Below, piece by piece: positions 1 to 7,762 of a stretch of DNA of 64,000 bases. Position 1 is the first letter of the stretch, and every line of letters begins with the position of its first letter. The notes beneath the pieces are model-generated. The model was given only the letters and a program-made list of their open reading frames with translations. It had not been told where the DNA came from and did no database searches. The DNA is from a bacterium (lineage in GTDB: Bacteria; Zhuqueibacterota; Zhuqueibacteria; Residuimicrobiales; Oceaniaggregativiventaceae): the NCBI GenBank assembly GCA_029565675.1, contig JAKQNP010000002.1, positions 1-64,000 of the forward strand, read 5' to 3'. Position numbers and translations under genes: made by a program.

Positions 1-1
1 G

Positions 2-103
2 AGCTTCGGCCGCGGCCTGCTGGAGACCCGGGCCGGCCAGTTGTTCATCGGCATCGGGGCGGATCTGTATGAGGTTTTAAGAGCAGTGAGGCGAGACCAC
101 TAA
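2..103 (+). CDS. C-terminal fragment of an unknown protein (5' end outside window)
   Basis: Frame 2 is open from the window edge to a TAA at 101-103 and encodes about 33 residues ending in EVLRAVRRDH. The codons have G/C-rich third positions like the surrounding real genes, which suggests a true coding tail. Too little is visible to name a family. It precedes the inverted-repeat element by about 60 bases. Confidence 0.5.
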   Translation, partial: SFGRGLLETRAGQLFIGIGADLYEVLRAVRRDH

Positions 104-161
104 TCTGTCACGGCTCTTGATCGCGAACCAGACGAACAAGCTTTTTTACAGGCGAAGCACA

Positions 162-189
162 ATCGGTGTCGGGGTCGCTATCGGAATCG
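162..189. repeat. Left arm of inverted repeat flanking the four-helix-bundle gene
   Basis: This 28-base stretch is the reverse complement of 597-630 apart from a missing 6-base unit (CAATCG when read on this strand). It is built of degenerate GAT-NNC hexamers. Weaker complementarity continues outward: GCTTTTTTAC near 140-149 matches the reverse complement of GTAAGAAAAAGC in the right-hand unit. The arms enclose one gene, so the transcript could fold into a long stem with the gene in the loop. Confidence 0.8.
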
Positions 190-213
190 GTATCGAAATC
201 GAAAGGACAGCGA

Positions 214-675
214 ATGGGCTTTGGGCATGAAAAACTGGATGTATATCGCGCGGCGATCGAATACGTGGGTTGGGCGTATGCGTTTTGCGAGAATCTGAAA
301 GGCCACCGCAACGCCAAGGATCAGCTCCTTCGTGCGTCTCAGGCAATCCCGCTGAACATCGCCGAAGGCAATGGCAAGGCAACGGTCGGAGACCGACGAC
401 GCTATTTTGAGATTGCCCGTGGTTCCGCGTTGGAATGCGGCGCCGTGCAGGATGTCCTGCATGTGTGTGGTGCACTGTCCGGGGAGGACAACAAAAGCCG
501 AAAGGCCCTGCTCGATCGCATCGTGGCGATGTTGACAAAACTGGGGCAACGAGGATACACGGTTCATGAGGAACAAACGCAATACATAGCGGGAATCGAT
601 TCCGATAGCGATTGCGACCCCGACACCGATGGAAACCGGGAACAGAGTAAGAAAAAGCATACCCCATTGCTTTGA
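214..675 (+). CDS. Four-helix-bundle protein (S23 / 23S rRNA intervening-sequence protein family)
   Basis: A small protein of 153 residues. The body begins MGFGHEKLDVYRAAIEYVGW and contains the family-typical segments KDQLLRASQAIPLNIAEGNG and RRRYFEIARGSALECGAVQD, the signature of the four-helix-bundle proteins first found in 23S rRNA intervening sequences and related to the Avd factor of diversity-generating retroelements. The start at 214 is chosen because AAGGA at 203-207 precedes it and because the upstream in-frame extension only translates the repeat arm. From about residue 128 the tail (rich in Asp and Ser) is encoded by the right arm of the inverted repeat and the first tandem unit, so the protein is longer than the usual 110-130 residues. 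Molecular function of the family is not established; nucleic-acid binding is assumed. No rRNA or reverse transcriptase gene lies nearby. Confidence 0.85.
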   Translation: MGFGHEKLDVYRAAIEYVGWAYAFCENLKGHRNAKDQLLRASQAIPLNIAEGNGKATVGDRRRYFEIARGSALECGAVQDVLHVCGALSGEDNKSRKALLDRIVAMLTKLGQRGYTVHEEQTQYIAGIDSDSDCDPDTDGNREQSKKKHTPLL

Positions 676-926
676 TTTATCGTGTACCACTCGAGTTTGC
701 GGCAAATCGATTCCGATAGCGATTGCGACCCCGACACCGATTGGAACCGGAAACAGGGTAAGAAAAAGCATACCCCATTGCTTTGATTTGTCGTGTACCA
801 CTCGAGTTTGCGGCAAATCGATTCCGATAGCGATTGCGACCCCGACACCGATGGAAACCGGAAACAGGGTAAGAAAAAGTATTCCCCATTGCTTTGGTTT
901 GTCGTGTACCACTCGAGTTTGCGACA
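594..926. repeat. Tandem array, three near-identical 111 bp units
   Basis: Units start at 594, 705 and 816 and a few bases of a fourth at 927. Each unit opens with the inverted-repeat arm (GATTCCGATAGCG...CCGACACCGAT) followed by about 77 bases including GTAAGAAAAAGCATACCCC and CGTGTACCACTCGAG. Units differ at only a handful of positions, implying recent duplication. The period is exactly 37 codons, so several reading frames stay open through the array and create spurious long reading frames on both strands. Confidence 0.95.
597..630. repeat. Right arm of inverted repeat flanking the four-helix-bundle gene
   Basis: This 34-base stretch pairs with 162-189 (identical on the opposite strand except one 6-base insertion). 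Copies of the same arm recur at the head of each 111 bp unit (from 708 and 819), so only the right side of the element has been amplified. It overlaps the 3' end of the four-helix-bundle gene. Confidence 0.8.
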
Positions 927-952
927 AATCGAACACCAAGATGGAGGTTGTC

Positions 953-3193
953 ATGGTTCGGTCCAGGGCTTTAGCGCTGTTGGCGGCTGGCTTGTTGGTT
1001 GCCCTTTCCTGTTCGCCGCCGCCGTTGGCGATCGATTCCGGCTGGCAGATCATCGTCGACTGTGCAACCTTCTCTTCGCCGCAGGAAGCAGCCCAGGCTG
1101 AAGCGCAGATCGACTGGAGCAGCAACGACCTCGACCGAATGAATGCCTGCACGGAAGGCTTTGCCGCCCAGGAGTTGCACACCTATCTCGGCAGGCTCAG
1201 TGGTCTCGAACCGAGCGATTCGGCCTTTGCCGTGATCTGCCTTGCTGAAAACTTGCCGCCGCATGCGATCGTGCTGACTGATTTGAGCCAGCCGGCAAAC
1301 CATCCAGCCGTTGCGGCAGCAATTGCAGAACAAAGACTGCAAGAGTCTTTGACTGCAGCGGAAAGTTATGCGATTTTTCTCCATCACGGCCGACTGTTTA
1401 TCGTCGGCCGCGACCGTGTTGGCACTCTCTATGGAGTCTACCATTTCCTCGAAACGCTGGGTGTGCACTGGTATGCACCGGCCGCCGATGGTGAACACAT
1501 CCCGTCAAGGAAGCAGCTGGTTTTCCCCCCGCGCAAGAAGATAATTTCAGCTCCTCAATTTATCACCCGCGGATTCTGGGCATGGGAAGATCGCGGCAAT
1601 CCGGATTTCTATTTGTGGATGGCGCGCAATCGGCTCAATTATTGGACCACCGCCGAACCCGATCGTCCATTTTTGCGCAAACTGGGCATGCATCTGACCT
1701 ATGGCGGCCACGAACATTTTCATCGGTTCCTCAATCCGGACGGCGATTACCCCTATAATCACCCGCTCTTTCGCGGCGATGAGCGAAAACCGGCGGACCC
1801 CTATCGCATCAGCGCCAGCGAATACCGCGGCGACACGAATCTCGACGGCCATCTGACTTATTTCGAAGCCCATCCGGAATGGTACGGTCTGATCGCCGGC
1901 AAACGCACGCCCTTCGAGCGGGAGTTCGGCACAAATATCTGCACGTCCAATTCCGACGCGATCGACCATCTGTTGAAGGGTTTGGTCGCCGAGCTGGCCG
2001 AAGGGGAGTGGCGGGATGCCGGATCAATCAATTTCTGGCCGATCGATGGCGGCAAGTGGTGCGAGTGCGAAAACTGTACACCGCTGGGCAATCCGACCGA
2101 TCGCTTGTTGCTTCTGGTTCATCAGCTGCAAGAGGCGATCGAAGCGGCGCGCGCAAACGGCCGCATCAAACGGCCGATCGGCATCGTTTTCCCGATCTAT
2201 CACGAAACATTGGTTCCGCCATCTCGTCCTCTGCCGGAGGGCTTTGATTACCACACCTGCATCGGCACCTATTTCCCGATTCTGCGCTGCTACGTCCATT
2301 CTATCGACGACACCACCTGTACCGAATACAATGTGCCCTTATGGAATGCCCTTCTCGATTGGACGCAAGGCGAGCCGCGCTATTATCAGGGCCAATTTTT
2401 TGTCGGCGAGTACTACAATGTGTCGAAGATCAAGTCTTTGCCGGTCTTGTATACCCGCATCCTTGCGCACGAGATTCCGCTTTATTTTAGCCAGGGTGTG
2501 CGCCATTTTCATTATATGCATGTCAATACCCGTTTGTGGGGCATGAAGCGATTGAACAATTATCTCCTGGCAAAGTTGCTGTGGGATCCACAAGCGGATG
2601 TGGAACGGCTGACAAGCGCCTATTTCGATGATTTTTACGCGCCGGTTGCCGAAGAGATGCGTCGGCTCACTGCACAGTTGGAAACAGCGCTTTCGAATGT
2701 ACGGCAGGTCCGCGACTGGCAACATCTGCCCGATCGCATCAATCAGGACCTCGATCCGCTGTTTCACCGCCAGCATCTGCAGCTCGAGGAAACGCATTCA
2801 GCGATGAACGACGGCGTGGACCTGGCCGAAAGCGTTGCTGCCATGCACGCCTGCCGGGAAATCATGGATTCTCTGCTGCAGAAGGACCTGCCGCCGCTGT
2901 TGCGCGATCGGCTGCTGGAAGACGACCAGAACCTGCGCTACGGCGCCAATACGGTGTTCTTTTACGACGCGGTTATCCGCGCCATTTTGGCTGAGCGGGC
3001 AGGGGATTTGGCATCGGCGCGGCACCAACTCGAGCGCAGCATTCCCTATGCCCGCGCTCTGAGAGCGGAAACGGCGATTGTCCAGACCGCTTCGTCGCAC
3101 GCCAACGCCGCGGACGGGCTGGCAGCGACCGGCATCGAAGAGACCTATCGCAAAATGATCGGGCGTGTGCTGCCGGGGTTTGTGCCCGAATAG
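953..3193 (+). CDS. DUF4838 (GH67-like) putative glycoside hydrolase lipoprotein
   Basis: A 746-residue exported protein. The N-terminus is a signal peptide ending in a lipobox-like ALSC with Cys20, so probably a membrane-anchored lipoprotein. Residues about 100-175 hold the alpha-glucuronidase-type N-domain motif (GTLYGVYHFLETLGVHWYAP), and the centre carries the DUF4838 hallmarks GFWAWEDRGNPDFYLWMARN, ICTSNSDAI and the paired-Cys segment WCECENC near residue 370. DUF4838 proteins resemble GH67 alpha-glucuronidases, but the substrate is unknown. The start at 953 is set by GGAGG at 943-947 and the signal peptide; the in-frame upstream extension only reads the tandem repeat. A hybrid regulator gene follows 168 bases downstream, which suggests sugar-responsive control. 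Catalytic residues cannot be assigned by eye. Confidence 0.8.
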   Translation: MVRSRALALLAAGLLVALSCSPPPLAIDSGWQIIVDCATFSSPQEAAQAEAQIDWSSNDLDRMNACTEGFAAQELHTYLGRLSGLEPSDSAFAVICLAENLPPHAIVLTDLSQPANHPAVAAAIAEQRLQESLTAAESYAIFLHHGRLFIVGRDRVGTLYGVYHFLETLGVHWYAPAADGEHIPSRKQLVFPPRKKIISAPQFITRGFWAWEDRGNPDFYLWMARNRLNYWTTAEPDRPFLRKLGMHLTYGGHEHFHRFLNPDGDYPYNHPLFRGDERKPADPYRISASEYRGDTNLDGHLTYFEAHPEWYGLIAGKRTPFEREFGTNICTSNSDAIDHLLKGLVAELAEGEWRDAGSINFWPIDGGKWCECENCTPLGNPTDRLLLLVHQLQEAIEAARANGRIKRPIGIVFPIYHETLVPPSRPLPEGFDYHTCIGTYFPILRCYVHSIDDTTCTEYNVPLWNALLDWTQGEPRYYQGQFFVGEYYNVSKIKSLPVLYTRILAHEIPLYFSQGVRHFHYMHVNTRLWGMKRLNNYLLAKLLWDPQADVERLTSAYFDDFYAPVAEEMRRLTAQLETALSNVRQVRDWQHLPDRINQDLDPLFHRQHLQLEETHSAMNDGVDLAESVAAMHACREIMDSLLQKDLPPLLRDRLLEDDQNLRYGANTVFFYDAVIRAILAERAGDLASARHQLERSIPYARALRAETAIVQTASSHANAADGLAATGIEETYRKMIGRVLPGFVPE

Positions 3194-3361
3194 GTAAAAT
3201 GTGAGGGTGCGGATTTTGCGCTTGCCTGGAATTCTTAATCAGCCCTTAAACAGGGCGAACGCAGAACACGCACCATTGTGACAACACGCCGATGTGCAGT
3301 GCTGGTGTAATTTTTCTTCAAGCACATGGGAATCTAACCCTTTACGAGCCAAAGGCTTGAC

Positions 3362-6300
3362 ATGAGGGGTTTAAAAGTAAAAGAACAACCCTTTGAATGG
3401 ATCATGGCCATCGCTACTGGGGTTGTTGTGCTCTGCTCTTCTCTCCTGGCTCCGGCTGCCGCTTCTGCTGGCAGCCGAACATCCCCCTCCATCGTCTTTA
3501 ATCACCTGACCACCCTGGATGGACTCTCCAACAACAACGTGAACGACCTTTTACAGGACCGGTCGGGATTCTTGTGGTTCGCCACCGATGACGGACTGAA
3601 TCGCTTCGATGGATATGAGTTTCAAAACTTTCGCCATGTGCCGGGCAATGAAAATTCGCTAACAGACAATTGCATCTGGACGATCACCGAGGGCAGCGAT
3701 GGCCGCATCTGGGTCGGCACAAAAAGTGGGGTACTGAATTGTTATGATCCATTAACCGATCGATGGCTGACCTGGGAATTGGATTCCGACATAACCAGAG
3801 AGAATTCGATCACCTCTATTTATGAAGACAGCAATCGCCTTATCTGGATAGGGACCTACCGAAGCGGCTTGTACAAACTCAATCCGTTTAAAGACACAAT
3901 CGAGCATTGGCAATCAAATCCCGAGGATGGTGCTTCTCTCAGCAGCAATTATGTGACATCGATCGTTGAGGATAACAAGGGAAACATCTGGATCGCAACC
4001 TATTCTGGATTGAACAAGCTGTCCCTTAAACCAGGGAGCTTTTCTGCAGAATTTATCCGCTATTTTAAAGAATCCAGCAATCCCAACAGCATCAGCGATA
4101 ACCTGGTATGGAATCTTACGAGATCGGAGAACGAGCTGGCCAAAATCTATGTGGGAACCGCCGATGGCTTGACAATTTACGATTCAGAGGATGATGGGTT
4201 TACCCAAATTCAAATACCGAATCCGGACAGTCTGCAATTTGGCTCCTCGGCCGGGTCGGTTATCGAGGAAAGGATCGGCGGCGAGAAAATTCTGTGGATC
4301 GATTCTTTTGCTGGATTGCTCCGTTTTAATGTTGATCAAAGAAAATTTGAAAGATATACCTCTGATCGGGAAGATCATCAAAGTCTGATTCATAATCATA
4401 TCAATGGAATGGTCAGGGACAAATCCGGAGTTTTATGGCTGGCTACCGAAAACGGACTGGCCTGGTTTTCTTCGAAAAGCACCAAATTTAACAACTCTTT
4501 GTCCGGGAAATTCCGGTTCAACCAGGGGAAGGACCTCGAGAAAAATATCAGAGCCATAACCAGGAGCAGTGACGGCAGAATGTGGTTCGGCAGCGAGGAA
4601 GGTTTGTTTTATTCCGACCCAATCGGCGTGGATTTTGCCGAAAAAAGTCTAGCGATACATAAGCATGCCGATTCGGATGGAATAAACATCTGGTCGCTGG
4701 CGCCCGGTACATCGAATGACCTCTGGATTGGCACGTACGGTGCGGGATTGTTTCGGCTTGATCTGGATACTGGTCATTTGCGATCCATAAAAGCGCATGA
4801 AAAGTCCATCACCATTCCTTCGATCCAGTATAACAAGACAGTCTATTGCGATAGTCAAAACCAGATATGGATCGGTTTTTGGGGATATGGGTTGGCGCGC
4901 CTGGACCCGATTACAGGAAAATACGAGAGCTGGCATCATGATACCGATCGTCCAAACAGCCTCGGTCATAACGATGTGTGGGTGATATTTCAGGACAGCA
5001 AAGGCCGACTCTGGATCGGGACAAACGGCGGCGGCTTGAATCTTTTTGTGGAACAGGATGGGGGGAGATTTATCCGCTGGTATGCCGGAGAATCTCCCCA
5101 ATTCGCTATCGACAACGAGAATTGGACAGCAATCGGGAGCCTCAGCAGCAACAGCATCTATTCGATGTGTGAATCCACTGCCAGGCGTGGCGGGACATCG
5201 TCGCCGGACACGACGGTGCTGTGGATTGGTACAAATAATGGTTTGAACAAGTTGGTTGTGCAAAATCGCACCGATGCGCTTTTGCCTTTTCAGAATATAG
5301 CCATCTCTTTTTTCACAACCCAAGACGGTCTGGCGGACAATTCGATAAAAACGATTCTTGAAGATGAGAACGGCAATCTTTGGCTTGGCACGAGTGCGGG
5401 TATTTCTTTTTTCGACACCCAAAACAACACTTTTGCCAACTACAATGCCGCCGATGGGGTTATCGGCGGTGATTTTAATTTTACTTCCGCCTTCCGCGAT
5501 GAGTCGGGCATCATGTTTATGGGCAGCACGAGAGGATTGAACTTTTTCGAGCCTGCTGCCATCGATCGTTCTTGTTATCGCCCCCCTCTCTTGATAACCG
5601 ATTTACAAATTTTTAATCAATCCGCCACGGCTCGGGATCCGGCTTTAGGTGGGGATACAAGCATTCCCTATGCGGATCAGATCACTCTTTCGCACCGGCA
5701 AAATGTCTTCTCGTTCCAGCTCGCGGCGCTGGATTACAACTCGCCCTCTGCAATTGAATATGCCTATATGATGGGAGGTTTCGATGCCAACTGGATTTAT
5801 GGGAAATCGAGGCGTTTCATCACCTATACCAACCTGAATCCTGGCCAGTATCGCTTTAAAGCCAAATCGACCAACAGCGATGGGATATGGAATGATCAGG
5901 TTACCGAGATCAGCGTCATCATTAATCCCCCATGGTGGCAGACCGGGTGGGCGATGTTACTCTATCTCACGTTATTTTTCAGTGGTATTTATGGCATCAT
6001 CAGATTTCAGGCCAATCGCTCCAGGACACAGGCGATTATAAAGATGCAAGAGTTTGAATTCAAGCATCTCCGTGAAGTTGAGAATATGAAATCGCGGTTT
6101 TTTGCCAATTTGTCGCACGAGTTCCGCACTCCATTGACGTTGATCAAAGGACCGCTCGAACAACTGATCAGCGGCAGAATAAAAAAAAACAAAGTTGAAT
6201 ATTATCGAATGCTTTACCGAAACGCCGAGAAATTGCAGCACCTGATCGACCAGCTGCTTGAACTCTCGCAACTGGAAGCGGAAAAGATTCCGCTGCAAAC

Positions 6301-7762
6301 TGAAGAGCTCGATTTGATTCATTTGTTGCAGGGATTCGTCCATTCGTTTAGACCATTGGCCGAACAAAAGGATATTGCGTTTGCTTTTCATTCAAATGCC
6401 AGCTCGGTCAAGGCTCTGATCGACAAAGACAAGCTCGAAAAAATAATCAACAATTTGCTGAGCAATGCATTCAAGTTTACACCTGTCGGTGGAAGCGTCA
6501 GCGTGCAAGTGCGCTGCGAAGCCGAAAATGGTGGTAAAAATCAAACGGGTTCAAAAGTCGCTGTCGTGTCCGTTCGCGACAGCGGGATCGGCATTTCTGA
6601 AAAAAACAAGCAAGTTATCTTTAATCGATTTTTTCAGGTCGATGACTCGGCAAAAAGAAATTATGGCGGTTCGGGAATTGGTTTGGCCCTGGTTAAAGAA
6701 TTGGCGACCTTGCACAACTGGGAACTCGATGTCAGCAGTCAGGAGGGCAAAGGATCGGTTTTTAGCTTAAAGATACCGAATTATGAATATTCCCCCATTA
6801 TCCTTGCTCACGCGGATGAGATCTCCGGCACCTCTGTTGAAGGAGAAAAGAGAGAAGCGACCTTCTCGGAAAAAGAGAGGGAAGCCAGCGAACCGGTATC
6901 AGGCTTTGGAGGGGAAATCTCTTCTCTCGATTGCAGTTCTGCGAGCAAGAGACAGGTCGATCGACGAGATTTGCCGCCCACCAAGAACAAAAAAACTCAG
7001 CTGAAACCCTTCGTTCTTATCGTTGAAGATTCTGCCGATTTTCGCTTTTTTCTGACCAATTTGTTAGAGGCTGAGTATCAAATTGCAGAGGCCGAGAATG
7101 GTGAAGAGGCGATTGCTCTGGCAAAAGAAAAGATGCCCGATCTCGTCCTGAGCGATATTATGATGCCAGGAATGGATGGTATCGAATTTTGTCATCGTTT
7201 AAAAACCGATTGGCAGACCAGCCACATCCCGATCATATTGTTGACCGCCAAAGCATTGTCGGATGATAAAGTTGCCGGACTGGAAACCGGTGCTGATGAT
7301 TATATCACCAAACCTTTTAATTTTGCAGAACTCGTTGCACGGATCAAGAATCTCATCGAGCAGCGGAGGCGGTTGCGCGAAAAATTCAAGCAGGAATTGA
7401 ATCTGCAGCCGGAAACACTGGCGACCAATTCAATTGATAAAGAATTTATGCAAAAGCTGATGGATGCAACAGAGGGGAATCTGCATGATGAGGATTTCGA
7501 CACTGAGGTGCTTGCCCAAAAATTATTCGTAAGCAGGAGCCAGCTCTATCGCAAATTGGAGGCGATTGCGGGTCAGACACCTGGTGAGTTTATCCGCATG
7601 GTCAAGCTCAAGCGCGCCGCGCAAATGATTGTGGAAAACAAATTCAGCATAACCCAAATTGCCTACGAAGTCGGTTTTGCCAGTCCCGCCCAATTCACCC
7701 GCGCTTTCAAAAAAGCCTTTTCCTGTCTGCCCTCTGAATTTGCCAGCCGAACAGCAATGTAA
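3362..7762 (+). CDS. Hybrid two-component system protein (propeller sensor, kinase, receiver, AraC output)
   Basis: A 1466-residue one-protein signalling system. A signal/anchor segment (about residues 15-40) is followed by many Reg_prop blades (IWIGTYRSGLYKL, IWIATYSGLNKL and similar) to about residue 745, which form periplasmic seven-bladed propellers. Then come a Y_Y_Y domain (about 775-850), a transmembrane helix (about 862-880), HisKA with the phospho-acceptor His919 in NLSHEFRTPLTLIKGP, HATPase_c with NNLLSNAFKF and GGSGIGLALV, a receiver domain with Asp1265 in LVLSDIMMPGMDG, and an AraC HTH_18 output domain (about 1385-1465, ending QIAYEVGFASPAQFTRAFKK). In Bacteroidota such HTCS proteins sense oligosaccharides and switch on adjacent polysaccharide-use genes; the DUF4838 gene upstream and the surface protein downstream fit that role. 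The ligand is unknown. Confidence 0.95.
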   Translation: MRGLKVKEQPFEWIMAIATGVVVLCSSLLAPAAASAGSRTSPSIVFNHLTTLDGLSNNNVNDLLQDRSGFLWFATDDGLNRFDGYEFQNFRHVPGNENSLTDNCIWTITEGSDGRIWVGTKSGVLNCYDPLTDRWLTWELDSDITRENSITSIYEDSNRLIWIGTYRSGLYKLNPFKDTIEHWQSNPEDGASLSSNYVTSIVEDNKGNIWIATYSGLNKLSLKPGSFSAEFIRYFKESSNPNSISDNLVWNLTRSENELAKIYVGTADGLTIYDSEDDGFTQIQIPNPDSLQFGSSAGSVIEERIGGEKILWIDSFAGLLRFNVDQRKFERYTSDREDHQSLIHNHINGMVRDKSGVLWLATENGLAWFSSKSTKFNNSLSGKFRFNQGKDLEKNIRAITRSSDGRMWFGSEEGLFYSDPIGVDFAEKSLAIHKHADSDGINIWSLAPGTSNDLWIGTYGAGLFRLDLDTGHLRSIKAHEKSITIPSIQYNKTVYCDSQNQIWIGFWGYGLARLDPITGKYESWHHDTDRPNSLGHNDVWVIFQDSKGRLWIGTNGGGLNLFVEQDGGRFIRWYAGESPQFAIDNENWTAIGSLSSNSIYSMCESTARRGGTSSPDTTVLWIGTNNGLNKLVVQNRTDALLPFQNIAISFFTTQDGLADNSIKTILEDENGNLWLGTSAGISFFDTQNNTFANYNAADGVIGGDFNFTSAFRDESGIMFMGSTRGLNFFEPAAIDRSCYRPPLLITDLQIFNQSATARDPALGGDTSIPYADQITLSHRQNVFSFQLAALDYNSPSAIEYAYMMGGFDANWIYGKSRRFITYTNLNPGQYRFKAKSTNSDGIWNDQVTEISVIINPPWWQTGWAMLLYLTLFFSGIYGIIRFQANRSRTQAIIKMQEFEFKHLREVENMKSRFFANLSHEFRTPLTLIKGPLEQLISGRIKKNKVEYYRMLYRNAEKLQHLIDQLLELSQLEAEKIPLQTEELDLIHLLQGFVHSFRPLAEQKDIAFAFHSNASSVKALIDKDKLEKIINNLLSNAFKFTPVGGSVSVQVRCEAENGGKNQTGSKVAVVSVRDSGIGISEKNKQVIFNRFFQVDDSAKRNYGGSGIGLALVKELATLHNWELDVSSQEGKGSVFSLKIPNYEYSPIILAHADEISGTSVEGEKREATFSEKEREASEPVSGFGGEISSLDCSSASKRQVDRRDLPPTKNKKTQLKPFVLIVEDSADFRFFLTNLLEAEYQIAEAENGEEAIALAKEKMPDLVLSDIMMPGMDGIEFCHRLKTDWQTSHIPIILLTAKALSDDKVAGLETGADDYITKPFNFAELVARIKNLIEQRRRLREKFKQELNLQPETLATNSIDKEFMQKLMDATEGNLHDEDFDTEVLAQKLFVSRSQLYRKLEAIAGQTPGEFIRMVKLKRAAQMIVENKFSITQIAYEVGFASPAQFTRAFKKAFSCLPSEFASRTAM

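Follow-up and report, generated by a model that had tools for sequence, protein, structure and literature searches.

The first kilobase of the window, meaning the whole 64,000-nucleotide stretch of bacterial DNA that was analysed, probably holds a one-gene mobile unit, a reading to which a probability of roughly 60% is given. Arrays of a short-period repeat would form the arms of a long quasi-palindrome, with a gene of the S23 family in its loop, and these arms would be renewed by a process acting on DNA. The features of the locus are as follows.

1–103, forward strand: 3' end of the upstream gene, read from the sequence; the contig begins at base 1.
160–196, forward strand: 5' arm, a degenerate hexamer array; inverted match (89%) to 596–630, 707–743 and 818–852.
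163–630, forward strand: the putative mobile unit, made up of the 5' arm, the S23 gene and the first 3' arm; 468 bp, with limits set by blastn homology.
202–207, forward strand: likely ribosome-binding site AAAGGA, 6 nt 5' of the ATG, judged from the sequence.
214–675, forward strand: S23 (four-helix-bundle) gene, 153 aa from the ATG at 214; profiles PF05635 and TIGR02436.
559–672, forward strand: C-terminal tail of the S23 protein, TVHEEQTQYIAGIDSDSDCDPDTDGNREQSKKKHTPLL; net charge −5, core +4.
594–932, forward strand: tandem duplication of about 111 bp, 3' arm plus 76-nt spacer; copies at 634–744, 745–852 and 856–932.
596–630, forward strand: 3' arm copy 1, within the S23 reading frame; inverted match to the 5' arm.
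707–743, forward strand: 3' arm copy 2, noncoding; inverted match to the 5' arm.
818–852, forward strand: 3' arm copy 3, noncoding; inverted match to the 5' arm.
941–3193, forward strand: downstream host gene, DUF4838 lipoprotein-like; PF16126, 91 bits.

As the initial annotation of this DNA had it, the arms enclose one gene of the S23 family. Its protein scores 68.6 bits against PF05635 (cut-off 33.8), its sole Pfam domain, and 61.9 bits against TIGR02436 (cut-off 24), and it matches PDB entry 2gsc (XCC0516) with E=3.5e-10. The gene is the only ORF inside the unit, and could also start further upstream at GTG 166, inside the 5' arm (ORF 166–675, same frame). Read as its reverse complement, the 5' arm at 160–196 is CGATAC CGATTC CGATAG CGACCC CGACAC CGATTG. 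The complementary arms of the initial annotation are real, with 162–196 and 596–630 complementary at 31 of 35 positions (89%), but the six-base indel with which they had been paired is unnecessary, as the pairing is free of gaps; a second, shifted register pairs 27 nt. The 3' arm is moreover present three times, beyond the single pair first described, and the match of 160–196 to 707–743 (37 nt) is as good as that to 596–630. Upstream and downstream flanks give an inverted alignment score of 27, compared with at most 13.5 for shuffled flank pairs (n=258) and a 99th percentile of 15.5 for control ORFs (n=105). Positions 594–630, ahead of the tandem copies of about 111 bp, form the 37-nt end of another copy; these repeats have no copies elsewhere in the window's genome and may have arisen by local amplification with the arm as primer. 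Two further claims, that the 3' arm encodes the Asp-rich tail of the protein (...GIDSDSDCDPDTDGN...) and that the locus holds no rRNA, both stand, the Rfam search of positions 1–6000 having returned neither rRNA nor any other RNA. Base 1 of the window is the end of a 749-kb contig, and the DNA upstream of it is therefore missing. Downstream of the DUF4838 gene, positions 3362–7762 hold an ORF of 1466 aa that resembles a hybrid two-component sensor/AraC-type regulator.

Scanning GTDB genomes gave 465 stretches coding for relatives of the S23 protein, and the best 80 of these 465 loci were analysed. The nearest protein among them, 91% identical, is from Desulfonatronospira (Thermodesulfobacteriota), and further proteins of the window type, 83–89% identical, are assigned to Kiritimatiellota, Acidobacteriota, Verrucomicrobiota and Gammaproteobacteria, where single phylum labels may be wrong because many of the loci come from metagenome bins. 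The arm–gene–arm unit was seen in bacteria of at least 10 phyla. Within the window's own class, the window-type gene is present in 1 of 63 genomes and the next best proteins are 44% identical; a search of plasmids and viral contigs for it gave no match. On the S23 tree, which is poorly resolved, the phylum labels need 42 changes (shuffled mean 48.6) where 12 would suffice, so the gene tracks host phylogeny weakly. The seven pairs nearest to the window gene have pN of 0.05–0.12 and pS of 0.66–0.79, a contrast in substitution rates that marks the protein as being under strong purifying selection; since synonymous sites are near saturation, the transfer was not very recent. Homology by blastn between the window and the loci L136 (Desulfonatronospira), L137, L141 and others extends from about −51 to +72 of the S23 core, with unrelated flanks beyond, and at the Desulfonatronospira locus corresponds to window positions 163–630. 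For pairs of loci with unrelated flanks, the DNA homology spans about −35/−60 to +60/+100 round the core, that is, from arm to arm or slightly beyond. Comparison of these loci shows horizontal spread of the unit between phyla.

The arms of the 80 homologues are alike in kind and different in spelling. Flanks are complementary (inverted score of at least 12) at 71 of the 80 loci, and the array upstream of most homologues is of the hexamer type, its spelling varying by locus: CGATNN, CGAAAT, TCGTAC/GTACGA, TCGTAT/ATACGA, TTCTCG/CGAGAA or ATCGTG/CACGAT. Mean complementarity is 21.5 for a locus's own arms versus 13.6 for arms swapped between loci (permutation z=18). Part of this covariation is inherited within clades, an effect of shared ancestry that is lessened when arms are swapped with the nearest protein relative; in that test the own arms were better in 45 pairs and worse in 16 (p=1.8e-5).

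Matched stems of this kind might be kept at the level of RNA, the unit being a relocated rRNA intervening sequence (IVS) whose stem is selected as an RNA helix cut by RNase III. Its size, layout and gene are those of the Coxiella and Leptospira IVSs (PMC4990558), and the RNA of positions 100–720 has a folding z of −2.7 (versus 20 shuffles), with both arms paired in the predicted MFE structure. Furthermore, an S23 gene of the class shares its direction with the upstream neighbour in 72 of 81 cases and with the downstream one in 68 of 83, where the baseline is 70%. Selection on an RNA stem predicts, however, that G·U mismatches outnumber A·C, and the counts are 43 to 45 in the CGAT clade, 61 to 57 at 40 S23 loci of the class and 104 to 102 for both sets pooled, which is no G·U excess and does not support selection on RNA as the reason why the arms match. 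As G·U does not exceed A·C, the matching must be kept by a strand-blind process, and the arm pairing seems, on these counts, to be maintained on DNA. No rRNA was found near the window unit or at 20 S23 loci of the class, and the units L312 and L313 lie antisense to both of their neighbours, so that descent by way of a selected RNA stem is judged improbable. The folding of the transcript round its coding region, which the initial annotation put forward, is thus predicted, but the likeness of the arms does not depend on it. The IVS and the window unit share an architecture; descent of the unit from an IVS is not supported by the results.

The 3' arm differs from the 5' arm in that it also codes. 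All 55 arrays of at least three units that lie inside the ORF share a single frame, which yields (D/E)X dipeptides in tails such as DTDPD, EYEY, ENEN and DHDC, whereas the 16 arrays that follow the stop codon fall into all three frames (6, 6 and 4). The constancy of the frame is partly explained by descent. Across the homologues, the mean charge is +2.8 for the core and −6.6 for the tail. A class-wide look at the CGAT-array pattern was set aside, most single matches appearing to be ordinary Asp-rich protein-coding repeats. The arms of the window's clade have period 6, not the 7-nt units of heptanucleotide STRR-type arrays; among the flanks of the class's other S23 genes, 39 have a strong period, most often 7 (26 of the 39), compared with 4 strongly periodic flanks among 156 controls. 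Period 6 in the window's clade is attributed to the 3' arm doubling as coding sequence. An earlier view, reported in PMC4679880, is that repeat units in multiples of 3 are favoured in coding DNA.

Genes of the S23 family are common among the relatives, being present in 53 of 60 with up to 15 per genome. The inverted flank score exceeds the control 99th percentile at 37 of 86 S23 genes of the class (p=9e-14), the controls being ORF-based, uncurated genes. The initial annotation had tied its idea to relatives that share the arms; the closest loci largely do, as the 71 with complementary flanks attest, but about half of the class S23 genes have no significant arms, and arms are therefore not obligatory. 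The window's genome has three S23 genes, namely that of the window, L002, which has 7-mer arrays on either side, and L001, which has no arms. In L002 (1152–2050; G000:C36), arrays of 7-bp TTTCGAA/TTTCGGA units, several hundred bases in extent, surround the gene on both sides, and its neighbours are an SDR-like gene and a 6-phosphogluconate dehydrogenase-like gene. In several genera (L046, L053, L058, L061) an S23 gene occupies the same place just 5' of an ABC-transporter ATPase gene, with differing arm motifs. At L048, Acido-Lenti-1 RNAs at 2474–2519 and 3047–3092 lie less than 2 kb from an S23 gene with repeat arrays.

Comparison of orthologous sites shows that, in other members of the family, the unit is gained or lost as arm–gene–arm. 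At three sites on Nostoc-type plasmids, S23 and its arms are present in some replicons and both missing from others whose flanks are about 90–94% identical. At site A, the replicon L327 (flanks 88% identical) has the arms and no S23 gene, and a possible target-site duplication, TTCTA, was seen at cyanobacterial site C only. Within the class, G030, G044 and G053 carry S23 at the L120 site, where G050 has a gene-free hairpin of another heptamer family; S23 is missing from the L121 site in G041. The two arm families recur in G044 at dozens of S23-free places, several of them as short-loop hairpins. The solo arrays and hairpins inspected there (L263–L266, L268, L269, L271 and L274) include (ACTCTT)n loop (AAGAGT)n and (GATGCTG)n and lie at or near gene boundaries. 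A lone intergenic CGAT arm is found in the same-genus sister genome G001 (L311 3422–3460; G001:C295 ~4921–4959); it is 90% identical to the window's 5' arm over 39 nt, in a genome without a window-type S23 gene.

The mobile, free-standing, IVS-like hairpin–gene unit of the initial annotation is largely supported by this spread, by the arm-to-arm homology and by the empty and occupied sites of other members, but not by the window site itself. A search yielded no convincing second copy of the arm in the window's genome, which the initial annotation had envisaged; the next matches are at chance level, such as one on contig C56 inside another gene. Orthologues of the DUF4838 gene in L217 (60% identical) and L218 (57%) have no S23 gene upstream, and their upstream neighbours differ from that of the window. 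The window's exact site yielded no clean empty counterpart, as the contig stops at base 1 and the DUF4838 neighbour gene is missing from the same-genus genome. For L002, no conserved flank pair that would mark an empty site was found in the same genus and family.

If the arms were ordinary intergenic simple-sequence repeats produced by slippage, S23 genes would stand among them by chance. Heptamer arrays occur commonly in a number of bacteria (PMC4679880), and the solo arrays of G044 are abundant. Chance placement is nevertheless at odds with the 37 of 86 S23 flanks that surpass controls drawn from genes of the same loci, with arms that are inverted and matched locus by locus, with cross-phylum homology that stops at the arms and with empty sites that miss arms and gene together; slippage as the whole explanation is accordingly given a distinctly low probability.

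A doubtful reading, albeit one of some weight, is that S23 supplies the catalytic or helper function in a pair like that of REP and RAYT, mobilising dispersed hairpins in trans. The dozens of solo hairpins in G044, of the same repeat families as its S23 units, fit this, as do the [hairpin]-S23-[hairpin] layouts of L138, L148, L187, L194 and L205, the lone arm of G001 and the gene-free arms at the S23 site of L327. REPIN/RAYT systems require a HuH (Y1 tyrosine) transposase, and in S23 the sole domain is PF05635, with no HuH/tyrosine nuclease; nor are arms dispersed in the window's genome. The likeness thus consists in a gene flanked by inverted-repeat hairpins and, in some genomes, further hairpins that lack the gene, and the difference in the missing transposase domain and in an arm sequence that varies from unit to unit. 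From insertion sequences and MITEs the S23 unit differs in having neither a transposase gene nor fixed terminal inverted repeats common to its copies.

Plasmid-borne S23 genes are mainly cyanobacterial (39 records). Among the 12 such loci inspected, 7 have flank scores of at least 15, and inverted heptamers (GGGAGTA, GGGAACA, GGGTGTA or CAGAAGT) can be made out by eye at about 11. The unit lies between cas6 and cas4 in two cyanobacterial plasmids (L314 and L322) and, in the Nostoc plasmid L313, between nrdB and nrdA, which encode ribonucleotide reductase subunits. Were the unit an integron cassette, it would move by way of attC and the arms would be incidental. A rough scan gave an attC-like score of at least 9 after S23 in 4 of 81 loci versus 0.7% of control windows, and L215 (Rhodopirellula) appears by eye to lie among cassette-like repeats. 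The great majority of loci, the window included, have no attC-like site in a relaxed scan, and the homology stops at the arms and not at attC sites; cassette movement is very unlikely in general and for the window is largely refuted.

The favoured reading remains the one-gene unit with arms renewed on DNA, and its steps can be outlined. During replication the arms would form a hairpin or cruciform; slippage would lengthen the repeats, and template switching would copy one arm onto the other, which is proposed as the reason that the arms stay inverted copies. Template switching in replication is described, in PMC8604942 and PMC8794818, as homogenising the arms of inverted repeats and as creating and maintaining hairpins. 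We infer that it renews the arms of S23 units as well. Template switching is usually short-range, and the loop of about 400 nt in the S23 unit is long, which counts against the proposal. As the unit has no transposase, its movement would depend on host functions that act on the hairpin. The protein of the S23 gene, a basic bundle of four helices of the Avd type, may bind the hairpin as DNA or RNA and aid its copying, insertion or tolerance; such binding may be regulated by the acidic tail that the 3' arm encodes. The stem of the transcript may be cut by RNase III, so that, as proposed, insertion between the genes of an operon would be tolerated. A part for the protein is made less likely by the Coxiella results, which suggest that S23p is not expressed (PMC4990558).

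The closest known relatives in form are the rRNA IVSs. That of Coxiella is 428–444 nt long, with 28-bp terminal inverted repeats round an S23 ORF (PMC4990558). The window unit, at 468 bp, resembles the IVSs of Coxiella and Leptospira in its S23 ORF within terminal inverted repeats, its hairpin loop and its sporadic horizontal distribution. It differs in lying outside rRNA, in arms that are hexamer or heptamer arrays of locus-specific spelling, in a 3' arm that codes for an acidic tail and in arm pairing without RNA-strand bias. S23 and the Avd protein of diversity-generating retroelements presumably belong to a homologous fold family, Avd being nucleic-acid-binding; unlike such a retroelement, the window unit is a single ORF with no reverse transcriptase inside it.

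The arms in turn recall repeats known from elsewhere. Degenerate heptanucleotide-repeat hairpins occur in P6b of the Nostoc tRNA-Leu intron (PMC3488679), TAACTGA heptamer arrays in Beggiatoaceae, cyanobacteria and Bacteroidetes (PMC4679880) and heptanucleotide elements in Geobacter (PMC2700814). For the TAACTGA arrays, horizontal transfer is suggested there and the mechanism is called not evident. Like the arms of S23 units, these are degenerate 7-nt repeats that fold into hairpins or are dispersed between genes; the window arms differ in having period 6. The passages searched in the three reports make no mention of S23, the term having 0 hits in PMC4679880 and PMC2700814, and no paper linking S23 genes to short-repeat arrays was found in the open-licence literature.

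It is possible, and offered tentatively, that S23 is the gene component of widespread 6/7-bp repeat hairpins and that its protein acts on hairpin tips. The rRNA IVSs, the cyanobacterial heptamer arrays and the free-standing units would then be one kind of transposase-free element with self-renewing, locus-specific arms, and arm–gene–arm units would be inserted, copied or maintained in intergenic and rRNA helix loops alike.

S23 genes and IVS elements have been known for more than 25 years, with function and origin described as unresolved in PMC4990558, and short heptamer arrays have repeatedly been noted without a cause. With the arm–S23–arm unit, whose sites are variously empty, solo or occupied, both questions can be put to the test. 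The unit also offers a natural example of inverted arms that stay matched while their sequence changes, apparently via a DNA process, and a natural case of an arm that also serves as coding sequence, here for a (D/E)X tail. The unit looks like a little-noticed mobile element that links the rRNA IVSs with the short-repeat arrays of bacterial genomes.
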